64,000 nucleotides of DNA from Cohnella rhizosphaerae (GTDB lineage Bacteria > Bacillota > Bacilli > Paenibacillales > Paenibacillaceae), in contig NZ_JAPDIA010000007.1 in the NCBI RefSeq assembly GCF_029525575.1, positions 434,001-498,000 on the forward strand. The letters run 5' to 3'. Within the stretch, counting starts at the first letter, position 1, and every line of letters begins with the position of its first letter. Positions 1-24,171 of this stretch are shown here, one piece after another. The position numbers and the translations under genes were made by a program. The notes under the pieces were generated by a model. It was not told where the DNA came from. It saw nothing but the letters and a program-made list of their open reading frames with translations, and ran no database searches.

Positions 1-2
1 CT

Positions 3-456
3 TTGCCTCCGGCCAAGGCGCCAACAGCCAATCCGGCAAGCGGCACGACTGTATCGAACGGGAGCATCGTGACGTTGAATACGGAAACAGCCGGCGCAAC
101 GATTCATTATACGACCGACGGAACAATGCCGAATACGAACAGCCCCAGCGGCACAAGCGTCACGATCGCCGGCGTGCGGGGGGGCGGTCGTGACGATCAA
201 GGCGATCGTGGTGAAGGACGGCATCCCCAATAGCCCTACGACGGTCGCCGCATACACGATTCCTTCCATCATGAAAGGCGATGCAAACGGAGACGGGAAG
301 GCGACTGCCGCAGATGCACTCATCGTTTATAAATATATTCAGCATAAAATAACGCTGACGAATGACGAGTTCGAGGCGCTGGATATGAATGATGACGGGA
401 AAGTCGATGCGCAGGATGCAGAATTGATTATGCAAATCTATACGAATTCGAAATAA
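3..456 (+). CDS. C-terminal part of a secreted dockerin-type protein (frameshifted, cut by window start)
   Basis: The first part (about 3-178) resembles the chitobiase/beta-hexosaminidase C-terminal (CHB_HEX_C) domain, with the typical IHYTTDGT and PNTNSP patterns. Reading then moves to another frame at a seven-G run (178-184) and continues to the stop at 454-456. The last 60 residues form a type I dockerin: two calcium-loop repeats, GDANGDGKATAADALIVYKY and DMNDDGKVDAQDAELIMQIY. Dockerins plug into cohesin domains, and the next gene, 13 nt downstream, carries two cohesin-like domains and an SLH anchor, so the pair may form one surface complex. The catalytic part of this protein lies outside the window, so its substrate is unknown. 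The frameshift is probably a read error because both sides encode consistent domains. Confidence 0.75.
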
Positions 457-469
457 GGAGTGGGATAAA

Positions 470-3301
470 TTGAGGCAACAGTCGATGAAGCTGCTCTCAT
501 TCATCATGACGCTTTCTATATTGCTGTTCGGATGGCATCCCCTCCGCGCGGCAGCTGCTCCGGCGCCCGAACATCCTGTACGGGTTGAAGTCGGCCAGGC
601 ATCGGGTGCCCGCGAGGACATCGTCGATGTACCGGTGTTTATCGATCCCGGCGATTACGGGGTGTGGAAATATTCGTTGAACATCTCTTACGACCCGGCG
701 GTGCTTGAGCTTGCGGAAGGCGCGAGTGTCACGGACGAAGCGGATGCAGCCGGCCCGCTTGAGGTGACAACCGCCGGCGGCGTTTTGCAGGTGGAGGCCT
801 CCAGCTTCGGGGATTCCTATTTTATAATGGACGAGAAGCAGAAGGTATTCACCATTCATTTCAAGATCAAGAAGACGGCGCCATCCGGGCCTTCCCATGT
901 GACCGTCAATGACAGTACTTACGTAGAGGATGAGGAGCCGCAAGCCGTCACAACCGTGACGCCCGGCATGGTCACCGTAAGCGATACTGCGGCCGTCACG
1001 ATCGGAAGCGGCAGCGGGTCGGCAGGACAAACGGCTTCGGTTCCTGTGTACCTGGAGAACGCGTCGGCAGACGTAGGCTCGTACGGCATACGAATCGGGT
1101 TTGATCCGACAGCGCTTGAAGTATCAAGCATCGCTGGAGATTCCGGAGAGAGGTTCATCTCCAGCTTTGACAACACCGAAGGCACGCTGATCGGGCTATG
1201 GGCGGACGCTGCGGGCGGCGACCGGCCGCTGCGTGCCGGGGATAGGCTGTTCACGATCCATTTCAAGGTGAAGGCCGCTGCGGCGGCGGGCGATCGATTG
1301 CCGCTTGTCGTTACGGATGCAAATGCGCTGGAGAGCTTCAGCGTGACGGATACGTCCGGCAAAGAAATGATGAAGACGGTAAATTCGGGGATGGTAACGA
1401 TAGGCTTGACCGTTGCGTCGAGCGATCCGACCGGTGCAGGCACAGACGGCAAAACGAAGATAACGGTCGCAGAAACGGCGGGCGCCGGCAACATCTTCAA
1501 GTATAAAAATTTTGCCGGCGCTGCGGCGGATTTGCCCGACGTTGGCGACGCTATTGAAGCGGACTACGCCTTATTGCCCGAGGATGGCCTTGTCGAGGCG
1601 GCTAACGGCGATCGCATCGTTGTTGCGGAAGTGAACGCGGCAGGTCAAGCGGTCAGATCCGGTCAGACGACTGCAATGGTCGCGAGCGGGCAGGGAACAG
1701 TGCTTGCGGCGCCGTCCAATCTGAGCGCGACAGCCGGCGACGGGCAAGTCGCCTTGAGCTGGAACGGCGTAGCGGAAGCAACCTACTACAATATTTACAT
1801 GGGCACGTTAACCGGCGAATACGGCGCTACGCCTGCAGCCACTGTGACGGGAGCAACTTACGCTTATCACGTGACCGGACTTGCGAATGGTCAGACGTAC
1901 TATTTTGCGGTGAAGGCTGGCGACGAAGCCGGGATCGGCCCCAACTCGAATGAAGCGAGCGCAATCCCGCAATCGGCCGGCAGCAATCAGGGGGAGCGGC
2001 AGTACGACGGCGGGTTATGAAACCATAACGGTAAATGTGGAAAACGGCGGAATCGACAACGGGGCGATCGTAGCGACAACCGTCATCCACCGCAAGACGG
2101 CAGCCGATGGGAGCAAAAGGGATGAAGTCACGCTCACCCTGGAGCAGACGAACAAATCGATCGAGAAGCTTCAAGCGGCAGGCTCCGACGTGGCCAAAGT
2201 GGTGATCCCGGATCCGAAGGATGAGGTAGCCGAACTTGACGTTACGATTCCGCAGGCATCGGCAGAACGACTGGCCGCAAGCCATATCCATTTAGAGATT
2301 TTCACGGACAACGTGCGGATCGTCATTCCGAACGATTCACTGCAAGGCCTGACAGGCGATGGGTATTTCCGAATCGTACCGGTCAAAAAAGGAAACCGAA
2401 CGCAATGAAATCGAGCAGCGTGCGAAAACGGAGCAGGAGGCAGCCGGCAGCCAGCATGTCACCTTGGTCGGCCGACCGATGAAAATCGAAACGAATCTGC
2501 AGAGCCGCCCGATCACGCTGGTGCTGCCGCTGAAGGACGCGTCGATCGACCCGGCGCAACTTGCCAATCTGGGCATCTTCATTGAACACGGCGACGGCTC
2601 GAAGGAACTGGTTAAAGGGGAAGCCGTCGTTTATGACGCAAGCGGGCAGCGGGGGGATTCGCTTCACCGTCGACAAATTCAGTACATTTACGATTGTCCA
2701 TATCGACGGGGAGAAGCCATCGCAGCTCAAAGCGTACGTGCAGGGCTATGCGGACGGCACTTTCGGTCCGGAGAGAGGCATCACGCGGGCTGAAATGGCG
2801 GCGATTCTGACGCGCGTATCCGGCAACGCGGAAAACACGGAAAAGCAAGCCGGCAAAAGCTACACGGATGTGAGCGCAGGGCATTGGGCCAAGGACGCTA
2901 TCGTTGACGTGACGAAAGCGGGCTTGATGGACGGTTATCCGGATGGCAGCTTCAAGCCGGGGCAGACGATGACACGCGCGGAGATGGCGAAAATTGCGGC
3001 TCGCATGCTCGCAACAACGCCTGGCGGCAATGGAAGCTTCTCCGACATTAGCGGCCACTGGGCGCAAAGCGCCATTGAACTGGCGAAAGCTGCGGGAATA
3101 ATCGGCGGCTATAGCGATGGCAGCTTCCGTCCGGATCAAACGCTCACGCGTGCCGAAGCGGTCGCGATGATAAGCAAGCTGTCAGGCAGAGCCCCGCTAT
3201 CCGAGGCGCCCGCGAAGTGGCGTGACGTGCCGAAGTCGCACTGGGCGTTCGGATTCATTCAGGAAGCGTCTATCGACCACGACGACGCCGGAAGACAATA
3301 A
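470..3301 (+). CDS. Secreted SLH-anchored protein with two cohesin-like domains and FN3 (three homopolymer frameshifts)
   Basis: A TTG start at 470 follows AAGGAG (455-460) and opens a signal peptide. Two cohesin-like beta-sandwich domains follow (about residues 35-165 and 170-305; FTIHFKIK and FTIHFKVK are their matching strands), then an FN3 domain (about 410-500). Coding shifts frame at G5 (1990-1994), A6 (2385-2390) and G6 (2651-2656). Beyond the breaks the protein continues with an Ig-like stretch and three C-terminal SLH motifs (YADGTFGPERGITRAEM, YPDGSFKPGQTMTRAEM, YSDGSFRPDQTLTRAEA), which bind pyruvylated wall polymer. All three shifts are in homopolymers and the joined product is a normal family architecture, so I read this as one intact gene. 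It probably displays the dockerin protein encoded just upstream on the cell surface. The exact last residues are uncertain. Confidence 0.8.
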
Positions 3302-3318
3302 ATTAAAGCGAAGCAAGG

Positions 3319-3372
3319 CCGACGGCGGCGGGAATCATGCACCTTAACGGTGCACGAACCCGCCGCCGTCGG
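3319..3372 (+). terminator. Long hairpin after the SLH anchoring gene
   Basis: CCGACGGCGGCGGG (from 3319) pairs with CCCGCCGCCGTCGG (to 3372), and an inner GCACC/GGTGC stem extends it. It starts 18 nt after the stop codon. The downstream T-tract is weak (TCGTTCCC), so termination strength is uncertain. Confidence 0.65.
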
Positions 3373-3626
3373 TCGTTCCCCCGATCCGTCCGCTGTCTGC
3401 GCCCTCGCTCATTCGAAGTTTGAAAGCTGCCCCTTTGCTTCCGATGCTCCTGCCTGGCATGCGTGCTCGTGACACGTATCGCGAACGATTCACGATCCTT
3501 CCTTGGGATTCAAGCTTATTTTTCCGTATTTTGGGTGCCTTTAAGCAAATTGTCTAGGACGATCGGCACTTTATCTTTACTATTAAATTATGTTTTGTAA
3601 TAATCGCACATCCAGGGAGGCAGACA

Positions 3627-20385: not shown

Positions 20386-21373
20386 TTGGTCAGCATCAAG
20401 GATATCGCCGGCGCGGCGAAGGTCTCGATCTCCACGGTATCGTACGCGCTGAACGGCAGCGACCGGATCACGAAGGAGACCGCGGACCGGATCCGGTCGA
20501 TCGCGGACGAACTGGGCTACGTGCCCAACCGGGCGGCCCGCATGCTGAAGAAGCGGGAGACGATGCTCGTCGGCGTCTTCCTTACGGACTTCAGCGGCCA
20601 CTTCTACGGAGATCTGCTGTTCGGGCTCAAGGAAGAGCTGAACCGAAGGGACTATGACCTCATCGTCTGCAGCGGCCGCCGCTCGCACCGGATGATCCCG
20701 GAGCGGACGTTCGACGGGGCGATCATCCTCGACGCGACGTTCGCCGACGTGGAGCTGCTGGGCTACGCGGAGCGCGGCCACAAGCTGGTCGTCCTCGACC
20801 GGGAGCTCGAGCACCCCAACGTCAACCAGGTGCTGCTCGACAACAAGGCAGGCGCGACGCTGGCGGTGGAGCATCTGCTCGGGCGGGGACTCGACCGGAT
20901 TTTTGCCGTAAGCGGGCCCGAGTCGGCTTTTGACGCGCGGCAGCGGATGCGGGCGGTCAGGCAGGCGGCGGAGCGCGCGCCGGAGGCGAGGCTCGAGGAG
21001 CTCCCGGGTGCCTTCGACAAAGCCTCCGGCTATGCGGCGGGGCCGCGGATCGCGGAGGCCGCGGGTGAAGGGCCGGTCGGCGTCTTCTGTCTGAACGACG
21101 AGATGGCGATCGGCCTGTGCGACTACTTGCGGACGGAGACCTCGCTTGTGATCGGGCGCGACGTCCACGTGGTCGGCTACGACAACATCGAGCTTGCGCA
21201 GTATATGCAGCCTCGGCTGGCGACGATCGATTACTCCAAGCGCAAGTGGGGGAGCGCTCGCCGCCGAACAGCTGCTGAAAATGCTCGAGGGCCGGCCCGT
21301 CGAGCAGGAGCGGATCTACGTGCGGCTGGTCGAAGGCGAATCGGTCGGACAACTGAAGGAGGAGACGAAATGA
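20386..21373 (+). CDS. LacI-family transcriptional regulator (frameshift in G5)
   Basis: About 328 aa. TTG 20386 follows AAGGAGAGGGG. The helix-turn-helix is KDIAGAAKVSISTVSYALNG and is followed by the hinge helix VPNRAARMLKKRE; the periplasmic-binding-protein-like ligand domain includes GAIILDATF, NDEMAIGLCDYL and HVVGYDNIELAQYM. After G5 (21248-21252) the true frame gives GALAAEQLLKMLEGRPVEQE and ends VGQLKEETK at 21373, overlapping the GH3 start by ATGA. It likely senses a beta-glucoside or its product and controls the permuted GH3 gene and, originally, the divergent GH3/transport genes. Confidence 0.9.
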
Positions 21374-24171
21374 CGACATCGATGATCGGCGTTCCATTGG
21401 AGGGCTTCGCGGCGTTCAGCCGCAACGTAGCCGCCGAAGGCGCGGTGCTGCTGAAAAACGAGCGCGAGACGCTGCCCCTGCGCCAAGGGGACAACGTCGC
21501 CGTGTTCGGTAGAATACAAGTGAACTATTACCGCAGCGGCACGGGCTCGGGCGGCAGCGTCCATGTGGCGTATACGACAAACCTGCTGGACGGTCTTCGC
21601 GGCAAAGAAAACGTGGCGGTAAACGAGACGCTCGCGGCTGTCTACGAGCGGTGGATCGCGCAGAACCCGTTCGACAACGGCGGGGGCGGCTGGGCGGCGG
21701 AGCCCTGGCATCAGCGGGAGATGCCGCTGACGGACGAACTGGTCGCCGAGGCCAGGCGCGTCTCGAACAAGGCGATCGTCGTCATCGGACGTACGGCAGG
21801 CGAGGACCAGGACAACGCGGGCGAGCCGGGCAGCTACCTGCTCACGGACGAGGAGCGGGCGATGCTGAGGCAAGTGACGGCGCGCTTCGAGCGGACCGTC
21901 GTCGTGCTCAACGTTTCCAATATCGTGGATATGAGCTGGCTGGCGGACGACGCTTACGTTCACCCGATCGCAAGCGTCATCTATGCCTGGCACGGCGGCA
22001 TGGAGGGCGGCAACGCGATCGCCGACGTGCTCGCCGGCGACGCGACGCCGAGCGGCAAGCTGACGGACACGATCGCCTACGCGCTGGCCGACTATCCGTC
22101 CACCCGCAACTACGGCAACGAGCTCGCGAACCTGTACCAGGAGGACATCTATGTCGGCTACCGGTACTTCGAGACGTTTTGTCCGGATCGCGTGCAGTTC
22201 GAGTTCGGCTACGGCCTGTCCTATACGACGTTCGGCCTCGCGGCGGCGGACGCCCGTCTGATCGATGCCGGCGGAGAAGCCGCCATCGCGGTCGACGTCG
22301 TCGTGACGAATACAGGCGCGTTCTACGCCGGCAAAGAGGTCGTTCAGCTGTACGCCGAAGCGCCGCAAGGCGTGCTGGGACGCCCGGCCAGAGCGCTCGT
22401 CGCCTTCGCCAAGACCGAGCTGCTGCAGCCGGGACAGTCGCAGCGCCTGACGCTCGGCTTCCCGGTCAGCGCGCTGGCCGCCTATGACGACGCCGGCAAG
22501 ACGGGCCATGCTTCCGCCTACGTACTGGAAGCTGGAATCTACCGGCTATACGCGGGTACGAGCGTGAAAAAGGCGAGCGCCGTCGCCTTCGAGGGGCAAG
22601 AAGGCTACGTCGTCGACGCGCTTGGGATCGTGCGGCAGCTGGAGGAAGCGATGGCGCCGACCGCGAGCCTCTCGCGGATGAAGCCGGGCGCCCGCCGGGC
22701 GGACGGCGCCTACGAGCTTGCGTACGAGGACGCGCCGAAGCGCAAGCTCTCGCTGGCGGACCGCATCGAGCGCCGGCTTCCCCGGGAGATCGCGCAGACC
22801 GGAGATCGCGGCTACAAGCTGAGAGACGTTCGCGACGGCAAGGTCGGCCTGGAAGCCTTCGTCGCGCAGCTCGGCGACGAAGATCTGGCGGCGCTCGTCC
22901 GGGGCGAAGGCATGAGCAGCCCGCTCGTCACGCCAGGGACGGCTTCGGCGTTCGGCGGGGTGACCGACAGCCTGCTCGGCTACGGCATTCCGGCCGCCTG
23001 CACGTCGGACGGGCCGTCCGGCATTCGCATGGACAGCGGGCACAAGGCAACCCAGGTGTCGATCGGGACGCTGCTCGCGGCGACCTGGAACGCGGCGCTC
23101 GTCGAGGAGCTGTACGTGCTGGAGGGCCGAGAGCTCGTGCGCAACGAGATCGACGCGCTGCTCGGTCCGGGACTCAACATTCGGCGGAGCCCGCTTAACG
23201 GGCGCAACTTCGAATACTTTTCCGAAGACCCGCTCATCTCGGGCGCCTTCGCGGCGGCCTGCGTGCGGGGCATCAAGAGGGGCGGCTCGAACGCCACGCT
23301 CAAGCACTTCGCCTGCAACAACCAGGAGAAGCACCGCAGCAAGGTCGACGCCGTCGTATCGGAGCGCGCGCTGCGCGAGATCTACCTGAAGGGCTTCGAG
23401 ATCGCGGTCCGCGAGGGCGGAGCGAACGCGGTCATGACGTCCTACAACCCGATCAACGGGCACTGGGCGGCGTCGAATTACGACCTGAACACGACGATCC
23501 TTCGCGGCGAATGGGGCTTCGAGGGCATCGTCATGACGGACTGGTGGGCCGTCATGAACGACGCCGCGCGCGGCGGCGCTCCGGATCGCAAGTACACGAA
23601 CTGGATGGTGCGCGCGCAGAACGATCTGTACATGGTCGTCAGCAACTACGGGGCGGAGACCAACGCTTACGGGGACAACACGATCGAATCGCTGGCCGAC
23701 GGCACGCTTGCCAGGGGCGAGCTGCAGCGGTCCGCGATGAACATCCTCGGCTTCATCCTCCGCGCGCCGGCGGGCGCCCGGGACGACGTCACCCGGGAGC
23801 GCGCCCAAGCGTTCCGGGCGCTGGCCGCCCCTGCCCCGGAGCAGGCGCAAGGCGCGCAGCCGCTGACGGACGGCGCGCGGATCGCGCCGGAAGCCGCGGG
23901 CCCGACCTGCCTGCGGGTGGAGCAAGCGGGCGCCTACAGGCTGTTCGCGAGCGCCATGTCCGACGAATCCGAGCTTGCGCAGAGCGCGAGCAACCTGATC
24001 CTGAACGGCGAGCCGGTCGCGACCGTCCAGACGAACGGGACCGGCGGCGCCTGGATGCTGCACAAGCTGCCGAAGGTCGAGCTTGCGGCCGGCGTGTACG
24101 AGCTCAAGCTGGAAGCCGTCAAACCCGGCCTTGCGATCCGCTGGATCGAATTCAAGCTTGTAGAAGGATAA
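21370..24171 (+). CDS. Glycoside hydrolase family 3 beta-glucosidase with circularly permuted domains
   Basis: 933 aa, no signal peptide, hence cytoplasmic. Domain order is reversed compared with BglX: the alpha/beta sandwich comes first (about 1-285, VVIGRTAGEDQDNAGEPGSY with a candidate acid/base Glu), then an FN3-like domain (about 290-420, VVVTNTGAFYAGKEVVQLY), and the TIM barrel last (about 480-800). The barrel has CTSDGPSGIRMD, KHFACNNQEKHR, MTSYNPINGHWA and the nucleophile Asp in GIVMTDWW (about residue 724). A C-terminal tail may be a carbohydrate-binding fold. The family cleaves beta-glucosides or related sugars. Translation is coupled to the LacI gene. Codon use matches the neighbours. 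Confidence 0.93.
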   Translation: MTTSMIGVPLEGFAAFSRNVAAEGAVLLKNERETLPLRQGDNVAVFGRIQVNYYRSGTGSGGSVHVAYTTNLLDGLRGKENVAVNETLAAVYERWIAQNPFDNGGGGWAAEPWHQREMPLTDELVAEARRVSNKAIVVIGRTAGEDQDNAGEPGSYLLTDEERAMLRQVTARFERTVVVLNVSNIVDMSWLADDAYVHPIASVIYAWHGGMEGGNAIADVLAGDATPSGKLTDTIAYALADYPSTRNYGNELANLYQEDIYVGYRYFETFCPDRVQFEFGYGLSYTTFGLAAADARLIDAGGEAAIAVDVVVTNTGAFYAGKEVVQLYAEAPQGVLGRPARALVAFAKTELLQPGQSQRLTLGFPVSALAAYDDAGKTGHASAYVLEAGIYRLYAGTSVKKASAVAFEGQEGYVVDALGIVRQLEEAMAPTASLSRMKPGARRADGAYELAYEDAPKRKLSLADRIERRLPREIAQTGDRGYKLRDVRDGKVGLEAFVAQLGDEDLAALVRGEGMSSPLVTPGTASAFGGVTDSLLGYGIPAACTSDGPSGIRMDSGHKATQVSIGTLLAATWNAALVEELYVLEGRELVRNEIDALLGPGLNIRRSPLNGRNFEYFSEDPLISGAFAAACVRGIKRGGSNATLKHFACNNQEKHRSKVDAVVSERALREIYLKGFEIAVREGGANAVMTSYNPINGHWAASNYDLNTTILRGEWGFEGIVMTDWWAVMNDAARGGAPDRKYTNWMVRAQNDLYMVVSNYGAETNAYGDNTIESLADGTLARGELQRSAMNILGFILRAPAGARDDVTRERAQAFRALAAPAPEQAQGAQPLTDGARIAPEAAGPTCLRVEQAGAYRLFASAMSDESELAQSASNLILNGEPVATVQTNGTGGAWMLHKLPKVELAAGVYELKLEAVKPGLAIRWIEFKLVEG

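Follow-up and report, generated by a model that had tools for sequence, protein, structure and literature searches.

Among the closest described counterparts of the locus analyzed here are cohesin, dockerin and surface-layer homology (SLH) proteins of Paenibacillus. The locus itself is the interval 3-3301 of a 64,000-nucleotide stretch of DNA from Cohnella rhizosphaerae, family Paenibacillaceae (G000:C8:434001-498000, part of an 8.5-Mb genome; hereafter 'the window'), in which the end of a gene for a dockerin protein is followed by a gene for a protein with cohesins and SLH motifs. According to PMC11557425 (2024), P. guangzhouensis has 35 cohesin proteins (28 with a single dockerin-cohesin pair, many with an N-terminal glycoside hydrolase, GH), five SLH-anchoring scaffoldins, two cohesins in its largest scaffoldin and one dockerin outside the scaffoldins. 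This set comes from the same genus group and is close to both classes of unit, A and B, distinguished below; however, the section on P. guangzhouensis mentions neither gene pairing nor propeller cargo and does not state whether SLH motifs are present on the two-cohesin protein. In the same source, Acetivibrio SLH-anchoring scaffoldins combine one or more cohesins with wall-binding SLH motifs and receive a dockerin-bearing protein, as the anchor here would. The window pair differs in that a propeller protein takes the place of the multi-enzyme scaffoldin as partner, the cohesins resemble type I, and there is no sign of an enzyme complex. The Acetivibrio genes cipA and olpB are neighbors. Cohesins of Archaeoglobus fulgidus and Clostridium perfringens (PDB 2xdh, 2vo8 and 2jh2, recovered as Foldseek matches) likewise show the cohesin fold outside cellulosomes. 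The cargo in the window differs from what is found in those non-cellulosomal proteins. We know of no SLH anchor gene pair for them. Paenibacillus curdlanolyticus B-6 S1, according to PMC6823336, resembles the anchor here in bearing SLH motifs and belongs to an extracellular complex; unlike the anchor, it has no cohesin or dockerin modules.

The results below indicate that the interval probably consists of the 3' end of a gene for an NHL beta-propeller-dockerin protein and the whole gene of its dedicated anchor, and that the two probably form a surface-display unit, not a cellulosome. The original prediction, made from the window alone, had placed a two-loop dockerin at the end of the upstream protein and two cohesins, a fibronectin type III (FN3) domain and three SLH motifs in the downstream gene, with 13 nt between the genes. 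This layout is confirmed: the propeller-dockerin stop lies at 454-456, the anchor TTG start lies at 470, and Pfam scans of the separate frame pieces of 3-3301 recognize all of these domains, with matches far beyond chance. The profile searches that had been proposed, for PF00963 and PF00404, both returned matches, so that the absence of a cohesin match, named beforehand as a refuting outcome, did not occur. The two cohesins, the SbsC-like domain and the FN3 domain share one open reading frame (ORF; 470-2017, PF00963 E 2.8e-30 for the ORF), and each cohesin exceeds the curated cut-off; the accompanying fold check was made on cohesin 1 of a paralogous unit (L020). No Pfam family was recognized in the anchor region 1950-2405. 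The closest PDB sequence to cohesin 2 is 2vn5, a C. cellulolyticum scaffolding protein (phmmer, E 1.3e-6), and cohesins of A. cellulolyticus ScaC and C. acetobutylicum CohA2 are also near it in the PDB sequence search. The dockerin exceeds the type I cut-off with the duplicated calcium loop-helix segment, both loops being complete, and its best PDB sequence matches include the dockerin-bearing endoglucanase 2yik and the dockerins of XynY and CelS. Ten dockerin segments from relatives and paralogues are 33-55% identical to it; across the 11 dockerins, positions 1, 5, 6 and 12 of loop 1 and positions 1, 6 and 12 of loop 2 are invariant.

The original prediction had also proposed extending the sequence upstream to see the catalytic module of the dockerin protein. 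We read the gene 5' of the window in locus L019, where its start, near L019:10274, lies 1.7 kb 5' of the window and is hydrophobic and signal-like (by eye). The extension yielded an NHL beta-propeller with no recognized catalytic domain: Pfam finds NHL/TEN_NHL repeats in three separate frame pieces, together with Flg_new, CHB_HEX_C_1 and the C-terminal dockerin; the only NCBIfam match over cut-off is one Flg_new-type repeat in the propeller-dockerin protein. CHB_HEX_C_1/Fn3_assoc is a common beta-sandwich spacer. The chitin- or glycan-directed role that had been suggested from it is a weak hint, with no chitin-active domain in the scanned pieces, and we set a chitin-directed role aside, having found no support for it beyond CHB_HEX_C_1. 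Farther 5', about 5 kb from the start of the window, a 72-bp unit is repeated in tandem at L019:6682-7088 (5.6 copies with 91% matches).

The pair in the window is one case of a recurrent, family-wide two-gene unit. Across 37 genomes of the genus we find 101 cohesin matches in 22 genomes and 54 dockerin matches in 23; for 41 of the 54 dockerins, a cohesin is encoded either in the same ORF or on the same strand no more than 6 kb downstream, and the other 13 all have E values of 1.5e-7 or worse. With profiles built from the genus cohesin and dockerin domains, we surveyed the architecture of 48 loci with 54 dockerin ORFs. A cohesin gene directly follows 12 of 23 dockerin-only ORFs and 20 of 31 cohesin-dockerin ORFs, and two further dockerin-only genes head a tandem in Cohnella phaseoli (L029) in which three dockerin genes precede one double-cohesin anchor. 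That tandem with its SLH anchor spans L029:5459-13565, and its first dockerin protein, when scanned, has NHL and cadherin-like matches. SLH motifs occur in the same ORF in 27 of 32 anchors; of the remaining five, three belong to this genome and are frame-broken, their SLH motifs lying in a different frame, one (L045) is cut by a contig end, and one (L046) shows no SLH.

Searches of 245 genomes of the family (double-cohesin profile at E 1e-20, dockerin profile at E 1e-12) matched the double-cohesin profile in 32 genomes, the dockerin profile in 36 and both in 31, and each profile in 7 of 19 genera. Measured domain to domain, a double-cohesin match lies downstream of the dockerin within 300 nt in 24 of 52 cases, within 2 kb in 35 and within 6 kb in 40. 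We read 25 further loci: 18 of the family in which both matches were already close (L083-L100) and 7 that were doubtful or outlying, one of them from another family (L102-L108). In 23 of the 25 the dockerin gene directly precedes a cohesin-SLH gene; L107 has the reverse order and L106 has no anchor. Among the 12 dockerins left over from the 52, six (L023, L044, L059, L103, L104 and L105) adjoin a single-cohesin anchor, three (L089, L091 and L100) are extra dockerin genes after an anchor, two are the reversed and anchorless cases just named, and the twelfth (G236) falls outside the loci read. Two family genomes carry interleaved dockerin-cohesin-dockerin-cohesin-dockerin arrays with single-cohesin SLH genes (L089:1044-10916, L091:2025-11859). 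A sample of 398 genomes from the class gave 12 genomes with a double-cohesin profile match at 1e-15, 11 of them within the family. The original prediction had offered the pair as a novelty in Paenibacillaceae; the unit instead recurs through the family, and cohesin, dockerin and SLH proteins of Paenibacillus were already in print in 2024 (PMC11557425). What appears new, within the open-access literature searched, is the paired unit with propeller cargo, of which that search (subscription journals outside it) returned no description.

The units fall into two classes. In class A, to which the window pair belongs, the cargo has no cohesin and ends in a type I-like dockerin, and the anchor has two cohesins (7 of 12 in the genus) or one (5 of 12). 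Nine of 18 class A dockerin proteins scanned have a propeller-type Pfam match (NHL, Rax2, HVO_0234 or DPPIV_N; that of L027 below cut-off), and the others have Ig-like, Flg_new, X2 or other non-catalytic domains; none of the 18 has a catalytic domain over cut-off, the mannosidase jelly-roll match of L020 being sub-threshold. Class B cargo has a cohesin of its own ahead of the dockerin and includes a rhamnogalacturonan lyase, a heparinase-like protein, esterases, a polysaccharide deacetylase, an amidase and carbohydrate-binding domains, some cargo being without a recognized domain. A Foldseek search with the modeled class A cohesin (L020 cohesin 1) returns as nearest matches cohesins solved in type I complexes; with a class B anchor cohesin (L043), rank 1 is a type II cohesin, with several more among the best matches. 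Some cohesin-dockerin proteins (L024, L025 and L037) have a FIVAR domain between cohesin and dockerin, a placement that resembles the FIVAR-dockerin pairs of Clostridium perfringens. At L025:745-3327, a frame with CBM96 and a rhamnogalacturonan-lyase beta-sheet domain precedes the deacetylase-cohesin-dockerin ORF; the two are possibly one gene split by a frame break.

The co-folding check named in the original prediction was approached through related pairs: whether a dockerin fits the neighboring cohesin was assessed in L020 (the paralogous unit of this genome, on contig C6) and L043 (C. phaseoli), in each of which the two genes share a reading frame and are separated by one stop codon. Each was folded with AlphaFold2 as a read-through dockerin-linker-cohesin chain into the anchor's first or only cohesin. 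The L020 chain gave a predicted template-modeling score (pTM) of 0.69 and a mean predicted local distance difference test score (pLDDT) of 78.3 from an alignment of 14 rows, and the L043 chain gave a pTM of 0.73 and a best-model mean pLDDT of 81.5 from 6 rows. The cohesin makes up about 58% (L020) and 52% (L043) of the chain, and about 15% of the chain has a pLDDT below 50; given these fractions, the pTM values point to placement of the dockerin on the cohesin, as judged from pTM and not from coordinates or predicted aligned error. The folds thus suggest docking of dockerin on cohesin in these pairs. Sequence distances point the same way: over 27 loci, dockerin distances correlate with those of the anchor's last cohesin (r 0.85) and first cohesin (0.75) more strongly than with those of the SLH part (0.57), which serves as linkage control, and the stronger tracking of the cohesins favors partnership beyond linkage.

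We weighed the display-unit reading against three alternatives. The original prediction had called the pair a minimal cellulosome. Half of that description stands, namely a dockerin protein beside a wall-anchored double-cohesin protein that is most likely its socket, and the other half, the cellulosome, does not. A true minimal cellulosome, with the anchor holding polysaccharide-degrading enzymes, would use identical interaction modules and an SLH anchor; genus loci do contain cohesin-dockerin-tailed rhamnogalacturonan lyase, heparinase-like and DUF4838 plus GH2_N cargo, and in this genome a polysaccharide deacetylase and an esterase bear such tails. However, the cargo in the window is an NHL propeller, and none of the 18 dockerin-only proteins of this genome and its relatives has a catalytic Pfam domain over cut-off. 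A GH domain is absent from all 8 dockerin ORFs detected in the genome, although frame breaks could conceal part of a gene and weak dockerins beyond the loci read could have been missed; some of the other dockerin proteins of the genome carry esterase, amidase or polysaccharide deacetylase domains. A genome search for CBM3 gave no match (the B. subtilis positive control matched), and no ORF at the genome's loci, or at any of the 48 genus loci, has more than two cohesins, so that we see neither dockerin-tagged GHs nor a primary scaffoldin combining several cohesins with CBM3. On the cargo, GH and CBM3 tests we reject the cellulosome reading, which is the least likely of the alternatives. It is unlikely, too, that the dockerin and the neighboring cohesins are not partners, the dockerin binding cohesins elsewhere (for example, on cohesin-dockerin proteins) and adjacency reflecting shared regulation only. 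The genome offers other cohesins (12 PF00963 matches in 7 loci), known dockerins can cross-bind, and for the 16 class B loci dockerin distances follow those of the cohesin in the same protein (0.61) somewhat more closely than those of the anchor cohesin (0.52), a result that counts against a simple anchor-only reading for class B. Yet dockerin-only genes of the genus, nine weak matches aside, precede an anchor (12) or head an anchor-ending tandem (2), and the distance tracking over 27 loci, the L020 and L043 folds and the existence of two separable cohesin kinds (type I-like in class A, type II-like in class B) all argue for partnership.

The remaining alternative is that the pair is a decaying pseudogene pair, which we regard as very improbable. 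Several frame breaks do fall across about 5 kb: one near 178-184 in the propeller-dockerin gene, others in that gene 5' of the window start, and three in the anchor gene, near 1990-2019, 2385-2390 and 2651-2656, as placed by a frame scan and, within the interval, by tblastn with the intact proteins of relatives. However, homopolymers of at least 6 bases occur in 1-3400 only at 178, 2385 and 2651, and each meets a frame change, so that all but one of the four breaks within 3-3301 lie at such a run. Scanned for frame by codon usage, nine stretches of this genome (163 kb coding) show 70 frame changes, 38 of them within 30 nt of a run of at least 6 bases, vs. 80 in 40 loci of relatives (584 kb), 3 of them near such a run; gene boundaries are among the changes counted, and the 4-kb overlap between L019 and the window causes five changes to enter twice. 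In relatives the pair is present as intact ORFs, and the domains are still recognizable in most frame pieces here. Because three of these four breaks coincide with homopolymers and relatives are intact, assembly error is the likelier explanation, rather than decay, and an estimated completeness of 91.5%, vs. 98-100% for most genomes of the genus, fits homopolymer errors in the assembly.

Several observations weigh against the display-unit reading. Neither protein of the pair is a single open frame in this assembly. The fold support is indirect, being read from pTM, comes from shallow alignments without a negative-control fold, and covers the related pairs with their first or only cohesin, not the window pair or cohesin 2; in addition, the other four of the five L043 models have mean pLDDT values of 63.4-66.8. 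The distance correlations are confounded by shared ancestry, and in class A alone (11 loci, window excluded) the gain over linkage is small (r 0.94 for the first cohesin, 0.87 for the last, 0.84 for SLH). In the genus, 11 of 31 cohesin-dockerin ORFs do not have an anchor as the next gene, and 9 of 23 dockerin-only ORFs have no cohesin anchor, these nine (L026 and L063-L070) all being weak dockerin-like matches, most of them inside long proteins. Finally, a terminator scan made no call at the hairpin 3' of the anchor gene, and promoter matches were at chance level.

Wall anchoring is supported by the combination of SLH motifs and CsaB. SLH anchoring to pyruvylated wall polymer requires CsaB, and the genome has a TIGR03609 match of 258.9 bits (cut-off 213.1), as 4 of 14 control genomes also do above the cut-off. 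The pieces of the anchor together contain what PMC11557425 defines as an SLH-anchoring scaffoldin (at least one cohesin plus an SLH domain); in relatives these lie in one continuous ORF. We propose that both proteins would, most likely, be made from a single message and exported. The SLH motifs would hold the anchor on the pyruvylated wall polymer, with the SbsC-like and FN3 domains as spacers, and the two type I-like cohesins could capture up to two propeller proteins through the calcium-loaded dockerin. The displayed propeller may then act as a binding, adhesion or sensing module.

Table 1. Features of the propeller-dockerin and anchor genes (window coordinates).
Feature	Position	Strand	Evidence
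CHB_HEX_C_1 / Fn3_assoc beta-sandwich spacer, C-terminal part of propeller-dockerin gene before frame change	3-185	+	Pfam PF13290 E 1.7e-10
Seven-G run with a change of reading frame, probably an assembly indel	178-184	+	sequence, tblastn, frame scan
Dockerin type I domain, end of upstream protein	274-432	+	PF00404 E 3.4e-14, within frame piece 79-453
Dockerin calcium loop 1, 12 residues, DANGDGKATAAD	280-315	+	sequence
Dockerin calcium loop 2, 12 residues, DMNDDGKVDAQD	382-417	+	sequence
AAGGAG, ribosome-binding-site-like, overlapping dockerin stop	455-460	+	by eye
Start of anchor (TTG, with an ATG in frame at 485) and hydrophobic N-terminus resembling a signal peptide	470-560	+	translation, by eye
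Cohesin 1	581-970	+	PF00963 E 9.0e-14
Cohesin 2	992-1402	+	PF00963 E 2.5e-16
SbsC C-terminal-like domain (S-l_SbsC_C)	1439-1669	+	PF18316 E 1.5e-6
Fibronectin type III domain	1709-1960	+	PF00041 E 4.9e-7
Conserved middle region of anchor, two frames (about 2019-2435 and 2386-2655)	2019-2655	+	tblastn vs. intact relatives, 37-53% identity
End of middle region and three SLH motifs, end of anchor gene	2603-3298	+	PF00395 x3 E 1.2e-42 (in 2534-3298), tblastn
Strong GC-rich hairpin 3' of anchor gene, terminator-like, without clear T run	3317-3374	+	RNA fold -49.9 kcal/mol, z -6.95

Other features lie around the pair and its relatives. Upstream of the window pair lies a UvrD-like helicase gene, and a chemotaxis receptor gene lies downstream of it. 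In two relatives, 7TMR-DISM histidine kinases lie beside the propeller-dockerin unit (L027:2858-4927, L030:9397-12447); we dropped a signaling link through these kinases because the window locus has the neighbors just named. Further into the window, at 20386-24168 (+), a 1261-aa ORF in which LacI regulator domains precede GH3_C, Fn3-like and GH3_N is either an unusual regulator-enzyme fusion or two genes joined by an assembly indel. Weak dockerin-like segments in L064-L070 lie in proteins of 1058-1647 aa with no cohesin neighbors, and L064, L065 and L067 also have SLH motifs. A plasmid origin was rejected: 72,556 plasmid records gave no near DNA match, and a protein search gave only a match to the FN3 region, in two records.

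We see about an even chance that cohesin-dockerin pairs in Paenibacillaceae are, more generally, a surface-display kit of two-gene units that exists in two parallel kinds and several copies per genome and is independent of cellulose breakdown. Each unit of such a kit would consist of a plug-bearing cargo gene and its own SLH socket gene, the type I-like kind displaying non-enzymatic propeller or Ig cargo and the type II-like kind mostly carbohydrate-active cargo. If the display-unit reading is correct, gene adjacency would make cognate specificity testable, and new plug-socket parts, possibly orthogonal ones, could naturally be drawn from the adjacent cognate pairs of many genomes. In these bacilli, cohesin-dockerin pairs would then be a modular means of displaying binding proteins on the cell surface, rather than a cellulosome remnant.

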